Assembly (NCBI GenBank): GCA_022825855.1
Contig: JAJDWB010000011.1
Coordinates: 1 to 64,000, forward strand
Direction of reading: 5' to 3'
Origin: Dehalococcoidia bacterium
GTDB taxonomy: Bacteria; Chloroflexota; Dehalococcoidia; Bin125
DNA: 64,000 nucleotides
The position numbers and the translations under genes were made by a program. The notes beneath the pieces are model-generated. The model did not search any database, had not been told where the DNA came from, and worked only from the letters and a program-made list of their open reading frames with translations. Position 1 is the stretch's first letter. The number at the start of each line of letters is the position of its first letter. Positions 14,837 through 16,771 of the stretch are shown here, piece by piece.

Positions 14837-15076
14837 ATGTCGGAGCGAGCCGAAGACGCAGCCGCAGAAGAGGGCGAGGCTGAGGAGCCGGATCGGGACT
14901 TCCCGATCTCCTCGAACGCCCGCTTCACGATCGGCGGCAAGCCCGTCGTGCTGGACGACTTCATCGACATCACCACCGGCGACGTCTCCAACCGTCCCGT
15001 GGTTGACCCGCAGCCGCAACCGGCGCCGATGCCCAAAGACGTGATCTGGAACGCGCGCCGGCCGGTCGAGGGCTAG
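14837..15076 (+). CDS. Small acidic hypothetical protein
   Basis: A 79-residue frame. The N-terminal third is very acidic (repeated Glu/Asp/Ala); the middle carries ARFTIGGKPVVLDDFID; the C-terminus is Pro-rich. No family is recognised. No strong ribosome site is visible before ATG 14837. Its TAG stop overlaps the stop of the convergent OsmC-like gene in a shared CTAG. The neat stop placement and the codon pattern favour a real gene. Confidence 0.55.
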   Translation: MSERAEDAAAEEGEAEEPDRDFPISSNARFTIGGKPVVLDDFIDITTGDVSNRPVVDPQPQPAPMPKDVIWNARRPVEG

Positions 15077-15543
15077 TCGTCGCCGTAGTCGGCTTCCCAG
15101 GTGATCTCGATCGCGTCCTTGACGCTCTCGTGCGCGGGACAACCCGGCGCATGGAACTTGACGGCGCGCTCGGCGGCGGCCCGCTGATCCTCTGCGATGC
15201 CGGGAATCTGGAACACGACGTGGATCTTGGTGATCCGGATGGTCTGGTTGTCCTCGCCCTCGATCGTGCCCAGGACGTCGGCTGTGTAGGTGTTGGGGTC
15301 GAACTCGACCTTGCGCACGGACAACGCCCGCGCCAGTGTGCCGTACATTCAACCGCCGACCGCGGCGACGATGTGGTCCAGCGTCGCCGTCATCGGCGGC
15401 GCATCCTCGGGCACGCCGTAGTGCTCCTTGAGCTTGCCCTGCACGCCGTAGACGACCGGCTCGGGCACGTCGCCCAGGGTCGCGTGGCGGAATCCGTCCT
15501 TGAGTTCGAGCTTGTTGCGTGAGATGTACTCGAAGCGGGGCAT
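15073..15543 (-). CDS. OsmC-family peroxiredoxin-like protein with in-frame UGA (probable selenocysteine)
   Basis: A continuous 156-codon frame interrupted by a single TGA at 15351-15349. Before it comes DHIVAAVGG, after it MYGTLARALS. In OsmC proteins this is exactly the place of the conserved peroxidatic Cys (GGC). The second conserved Cys is intact at residue 135 (APGCPAHE), so the pair would be U65/C135. OsmC proteins reduce organic hydroperoxides in the cytoplasm, and selenocysteine-containing OsmC-like proteins have been described in bacteria. GGAGG stands five bases before ATG 15543. A possible SECIS hairpin follows the UGA. The alternative is a Cys-to-stop mutation, with re-initiation at the ATG right after the UGA. 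Confidence 0.72.
15315..15341 (-). promoter_or_regulatory. Candidate bacterial SECIS hairpin after the OsmC UGA
   Basis: Drawn by hand on the transcript. GCAC pairs with GUGC at the base; a 3-base bulge is followed by GGC(G) pairing with (U)GUCC, which has one bulged U; the apical loop is about 7 bases (CGGGCGU) with several G. The loop lies roughly 19-25 bases after the UGA, inside the window seen for bacterial SECIS elements. The upper stem is short, so this is a candidate only. Confidence 0.35.
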
Positions 15544-15598: not shown

Positions 15599-16771
15599 TT
15601 AGCTGTTGGCCAACAGGGTACGCATTCGGTCGACGCCCTCGACGATCTCGTCCAGCGAGGCCGCGTAGCTGAAGCGCAGGTAGCCCTCACCCAGATGACC
15701 GAAGCTGGTGCCTGCAATCACCGCCAGGCCGACTTCGTCGAGCAGGCGCTCCTGCATGGTGCGCGCGTCGATGCCGGTCTCGGAGATGTTGGGGAAGGCG
15801 TAGAACGCGCCGAGCGGATTGACGCAGCTCACCCCCGGCACGTCGTTGAGTTCTTCTACGATCACACGGCGACGCTCGTCGAAGGCGCTGGTCATAATGT
15901 CGACCGCCTCCTGCGGCCCGTCCAACGCTTCGACCGCGGCGTACTGGGTTGCGGCGTTTGGACAGGAGTAGCTGTTGATCGCCAGGCGCTCCGCGAACGG
16001 GAAGAGATCGGGCGGGAAGACGCCGAAGCCCAGCCGCCAGCCGGTCATCGCATAGGTCTTGCTCCAGCCGTCCAGCACGATCAGGCGGTCGCGGAGCTGC
16101 GGGTAGTTGAGCCAGGAGGTGTGTTCGAGTCCTTCGTAGAGGATCCGCGAGTAGATCTCGTCGCTGAGGATGACGACCTCCGGCCACTGCTCCAGACCTG
16201 CAACCAATCGCTCGATCTGGTCGCGGGAATAGACGCCGCCGGTCGGATTGGCCGGGCTGTTGAGGATGATCAACCGGGTGCGTTCGTTGATCTGGCTCAG
16301 CACCTGGTCCGGATCGAAGGTGAAACCGCTGGATTCGTGCAGCTCGATCGGCACGGGCGTCGCGCCGGAGAAGCGGATCACCGACTCGTAGATCGGGAAT
16401 CCCGGGTTGGGATACATGATCTCCGCGCCCGGCTCGCCCATCAGCAGCGCGGCGAAGAACATGACCGGCTTCGCCCCCGGCGTGATCAGCACCGCTTCGG
16501 GATCGACCTCCGCCCCATGCCGGCGCTGCAGGTCGCGGGCGACGGACTCGCGCAGCTCGGGAATGCCGGCGGCCGGGGTGTAGCCGTGCTTGCCGTCGGC
16601 CAGCGCCTGCTCGCCGGCCTGGACGATGTTGTCGGGCGTGGCGAAGTCCGGCTGTCCGATGCCGAGATTGATGATCGAGCGACCCTGTGCCGCCAGCCGA
16701 TTCGCCTTGGCCAGGACCTCGAAGGCGGTTTCCGTGCCCAGGTTTTGCGCGGCGCTGGTTGGAGAGACCAT
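15599..16771 (-). CDS. Class I/II pyridoxal-phosphate aminotransferase (aspartate aminotransferase type)
   Basis: A 390-residue fold-type I aminotransferase. Landmarks are NLGIGQPDF at the N-terminus, NPTGG (about 175-179), DEIYSRI (D204, Y207), the Schiff-base Lys K238 in GWSKTYAMTGWRLGFG, and the substrate-carboxylate Arg near the C-terminus in GYLRFSYA. Best fit is the subgroup Ig AspAT/prephenate aminotransferase group. It transfers the amino group of aspartate or a similar amino acid to 2-oxoglutarate. Minus strand, 55 bases upstream of the OsmC-like gene. Confidence 0.88.
   Translation of the reverse strand: MVSPTSAAQNLGTETAFEVLAKANRLAAQGRSIINLGIGQPDFATPDNIVQAGEQALADGKHGYTPAAGIPELRESVARDLQRRHGAEVDPEAVLITPGAKPVMFFAALLMGEPGAEIMYPNPGFPIYESVIRFSGATPVPIELHESSGFTFDPDQVLSQINERTRLIILNSPANPTGGVYSRDQIERLVAGLEQWPEVVILSDEIYSRILYEGLEHTSWLNYPQLRDRLIVLDGWSKTYAMTGWRLGFGVFPPDLFPFAERLAINSYSCPNAATQYAAVEALDGPQEAVDIMTSAFDERRRVIVEELNDVPGVSCVNPLGAFYAFPNISETGIDARTMQERLLDEVGLAVIAGTSFGHLGEGYLRFSYAASLDEIVEGVDRMRTLLANS

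Follow-up and report, generated by a model that had tools for sequence, protein, structure and literature searches.

The locus and its reading frame

The stretch of DNA analysed here, a window of 64,000 nucleotides, carries on its minus strand a gene of the OsmC fold whose single ATG-to-TAG frame runs from 15543 to 15073 and is interrupted solely by a TGA at 15351-15349. With this TGA read as selenocysteine (Sec), the frame gives 156 residues before the TAG stop, and Sec falls at residue 65, the N-terminal (peroxidatic) active-site position. The second (resolving) active-site Cys, Cys135, sits in a GCP motif (codon at 15141-15139, minus strand) and is invariant in our alignment A1, while a Shine-Dalgarno sequence, GGAGGAG, precedes the start on the same strand (15553-15547). 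The preliminary description of this DNA had proposed a frame open across one TGA, a strong ribosome site, an intact second active-site Cys and OsmC sequence on either side of the UGA, and on each of these points our analysis agrees: the Pfam OsmC profile (PF02566) matches across the TGA with 37.2 bits, against a gathering cut-off of 27.5 (E 4.2e-9). An AlphaFold2 model built from 32 family members reaches a mean pLDDT of 92.9, and Foldseek matches it to OsmC, Ohr and related redox proteins, plus one entry listed as hypothetical, the top PDB matches being OsmC/Ohr. No other OsmC was found in the window's genome.

Upstream, on the same strand, lies an aminotransferase gene (15599-16771). Like the neighbourhood of the OsmC gene in general, it is conserved within the genus and not beyond; we therefore recognize no functional partner among the neighbours, and do not count the aminotransferase as part of the system. 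On the plus strand, a small open reading frame of 79 aa (14837-15076), also conserved in the genus (70-88% identity), is convergent with the OsmC gene and overlaps it by a few bases at its end.

Conservation of the in-frame TGA

Codon 65 was compared in 50 Chloroflexota homologues aligned residue by residue, and reads TGA in 48, TGC in one (L078) and TGG in one (L080). The window gene and L078 thus form a Sec/Cys pair, and the earlier placement of the UGA at the catalytic Cys of an OsmC protein is confirmed by this alignment of TGA with a Cys codon. Both active-site positions, Sec65 and Cys135, are kept throughout, barring this one Sec/Cys swap and one Trp. At closer range, all 15 genomes of the genus have one TGA at codon 65, and the gene is present in three of the five other family members, each time with the TGA; the check on close relatives proposed in the preliminary description therefore returns TGA in every case and Cys in none. 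Across an evenly drawn sample of 400 Chloroflexota genomes the gene occurs in 37, nearly all with one TGA. A pattern scan retrieved exclusively Chloroflexota/Dehalococcoidia records, and a search of plasmid and viral collections yielded no relative; a point of caution is that the named relatives are MAGs. Two genomes carry the gene twice: G297, with TGA-bearing copies about 20 kb apart (C1:7645734-7646174 and 7666404-7666844), and G335.

Gene decay can look much like this: a functional residue is lost to a stop within the frame, and a dead OsmC gene whose catalytic Cys codon had mutated to nonsense would be split in just such a manner. Yet the same TGA recurs in nearly all homologues and in many families, the check for decay signs revealed no other lesions, and purifying selection is equal on both halves of the gene, with dN/dS of 0.087 upstream of the TGA and 0.085 downstream (outside the SECIS element). 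Because the TGA is so widely kept, chance and decay are excluded; the pseudogene reading is refuted by this conservation, and we assign it a negligible probability.

The UGA could also be a true stop, with translation restarting at the adjoining ATG to give two short proteins acting together. The window gene and 25 homologues do have an ATG directly after the TGA, but members of the other main clade continue with CTC (nine sequences) or CTT (one), which are not usual starts, or else with CTG (six) or TTG (one). Moreover, the break would fall within a continuous helix of the model (H54-76), and the catalytic position, occupied by TGC in L078, would be left empty. Given the many homologues with CTC or CTT, and a break located in the main helix, we regard such a restart as extremely improbable.

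A SECIS-like element and the selenocysteine machinery

Downstream of the UGA, on the minus strand, an upper stem-loop of 8 bp is predicted at 15333-15315, where 15333-15326 pairs with 15322-15315 (-13.3 kcal/mol) around a 3-nt loop, GUU, at 15325-15323, 23 nt after the UGA; the full predicted fold, with lower helices that extend back as far as the UGA, spans 15350-15301. The preliminary description had drawn this hairpin at 15341-15315, some 20 bases past the UGA, with a G-containing loop and a bulged U. Its 3' end holds, whereas the 5' side was started 8 bases too early and no bulged U is predicted in the upper stem. According to the published bSECIS model, the loop measures 3-9 nt, the stem 4-16 bp, a G occupies one of the first two loop positions, the distance from the UGA is 16-37 nt and the MFE is at most -7.5 (PMC13188914); with its 8 bp, GUU loop, 23 nt and -13.3 kcal/mol, the window hairpin lies within all four constraints of that study.

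Alone, such a hairpin is unremarkable, because in our control 4.4-4.9% of the TGAs found anywhere in this GC-rich window are followed by one as long; it is conservation that counts. Compared across the 15 genomes of the genus, codons 70-84 show a synonymous variation of 0.063 per codon, against a gene mean of 0.265, and 0 of 5000 permutations gave a value as low as 0.063. Within the gene, the windows with the least variation begin at codons 71-75, and the minimum region, codons 71-84, is where a bacterial SECIS element is expected. In 29 sequences from the other clades, the hairpin has a slightly different register and is 100% paired; one of its pairs displays compensatory G-C/C-G/A-U changes, and 0 of 500 shuffles attained its covariation score. 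Hairpin covariation in the family of the window gene does not rise above shuffles, so that for this family the case for a SECIS element draws on synonymous constraint and on what the other clades show. Among relatives, the stem is weaker in two and the loop G absent in one; an Rfam scan of the gene returned weak chance matches only, none to a SECIS family.

The genome of the window holds all four components that the preliminary description had proposed to look for: selA (513 bits) and selB (344 bits), which both exceed their cut-offs, along with selD (352 bits) and a tRNA-Sec (70 bits) whose anticodon is TCA. The selD gene has one in-frame TGA of its own (L011, about 1531-1533; in its own genome C13:217544-218485), located in the GGUGSK active-site motif, and SelD of this genome is itself likely a selenoprotein. 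In the phylum sample, selA accompanies 34 of 35 TGA-bearing genomes, compared with 321 of 400 in the whole sample (hypergeometric p 0.003), a co-occurrence that lends some support, though little, given how common selA is in the phylum. The one TGA-bearing genome without a selA match, G114, is possibly incomplete.

One might suppose that the UGA is read by a near-cognate tRNA, for instance that of Trp, or recoded as some other sense codon; the TGG at codon 65 of L080 (G321) would fit such a reading. However, L080 can be aligned from residue 27 onwards only, and its hairpin is weaker. Furthermore, TGA serves as the normal stop of 17 of the window's 36 long ORFs, more than any other stop codon, and the code is therefore not globally reassigned. 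The Cys found at this position in L078, the full Sec machinery of the genome and a conserved SECIS-like element in the right place make read-through by Trp or another residue highly unlikely. L080 itself (G321:C49) may be an inactivated copy, or else reflect an error of sequencing.

The earlier suggestion of a probable selenoprotein is thus sustained by the conserved UGA, the Sec machinery genes, the conserved SECIS-like element and the Cys homologue. We propose, with a probability of roughly 0.94, that the product of the gene is a selenoprotein with the OsmC/Ohr fold, Sec insertion itself being what we infer from this evidence. SelB carrying Sec-tRNA(UCA) would bind the stem-loop just 3' of the UGA and direct selenocysteine into residue 65. 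The UGA, the stem-loop 23 nt downstream, the small loop with G first and the selABCD set are all shared with bacterial SECIS-dependent selenoproteins of the SelB/tRNA-Sec pathway, and the only departure found is the existence of two SECIS registers among clades.

Relation to known OsmC selenoproteins and probable chemistry

OsmC-like selenoproteins were reported in 2005 from the Sargasso Sea, as three sequences with the motif UxxT (PMC1088965), and in 2008 as five sequences (PMC2398784); a 2026 inventory of prokaryotic selenoproteins has a single OsmC-like entry, again UxxT (PMC13188914). The preliminary description had remarked that selenoprotein relatives of OsmC are known, which is true of this UxxT family, NCBIfam NF041052 (OsmC_like_Se), but the window protein belongs to a different branch. 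The two share the OsmC fold, Sec at the N-terminal active-site position and a second Cys, and NF041052 is TGA-bearing in Chloroflexota too. Nevertheless, the window protein scores only 17.1 bits against a curated cut-off of 95, the best E among its 32 family members is no better than 5.5e-6, and in the Chloroflexota sample no locus of the window type exceeds the cut-off. Around the Sec, the window protein reads GG-U-M-Y-G-T where NF041052 has GF-U-L-L-T (U-L-L-T in most of its loci), and around the second Cys GCPAHES rather than ACHAAQ/GCFAEQ; members of the window subfamily display U-M-Y-G-T or U-L-T-G-T in place of UxxT. In the tree, the window type forms a clade separate from NF041052 (support 100/100), and four genomes (G055, G090, G311 and G335) carry both types at different loci. 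On the strength of these scores, motifs, tree and co-occurring loci, the window gene is, as judged from sequence, a member of a second, unmodelled OsmC selenoprotein subfamily (U-x-x-G-T), which, as sampled, occurs in Chloroflexota only and almost always in the Sec form. NF041052 itself exceeds its cut-off in 26 of the 400 Chloroflexota genomes (L087-L112), with TGA in 25 of the 26 loci and Cys in one (L091). Whether the second subfamily arose independently of the UxxT family at the same position, with Sec the rule and Cys a rare exception phylum-wide, we put at slightly below even odds; a single Sec origin of both types is not rejected (AU p 0.29).

The fold resembles that of the OsmC/Ohr thiol peroxidases (PF02566; E. 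coli OsmC 1nye and D. radiodurans Ohr 1usp, Foldseek E about 1e-6 to 1e-7), which likewise have two active-site positions, with the peroxidatic residue in the central helix; they carry Cys there, whereas the window protein has Sec, and identity is only 10-18%. In a weak pairwise alignment (E 0.31), residue 65 matches the N-terminal catalytic Cys of T. thermophilus OsmC (1ukk), and Cys135 its GCP Cys. In Ohr/OsmC proteins, organic hydroperoxides are reduced at the N-terminal Cys, which the C-terminal Cys then resolves, and the enzyme is returned to its active state by lipoylated proteins (PMC4069020, PMC8945050). By analogy, the selenolate of Sec65 would reduce a peroxide, probably an organic hydroperoxide, and become a selenenic acid, which Cys135 would resolve as a selenenylsulfide before the enzyme is regenerated by a thiol reductant, lipoylated or of another kind. 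From the fold and the active-site positions, this peroxidase chemistry appears fairly probable. Another function would leave the Sec reading intact: the protein may contain Sec within an OsmC fold and yet be a redox or binding protein for some other substrate. YhfA-type OsmC proteins, which have no characterised activity (PMC8945050), offer a precedent, and the low similarity to tested OsmC/Ohr proteins and the lack of any neighbour conserved beyond the genus are consistent with it. Against this, both catalytic positions are kept, one of them as Sec; D56 aligns with the Glu that precedes the Cys in 1ukk, an Asp for Glu difference; and R19 is more than 90% conserved among homologues. We thus consider a non-peroxidase role rather unlikely, and peroxidase chemistry in the selenoprotein the better supported proposal.

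Standard gene calling would render this gene as two fragments, of 64 and 91 residues; since such genes are split in this manner, a whole subfamily of antioxidant type can go unseen, here in a phylum that is very common and mostly uncultured. A family that is nearly all Sec, together with a related one bearing Sec at the same place, provides a natural test of why this site favours selenium.
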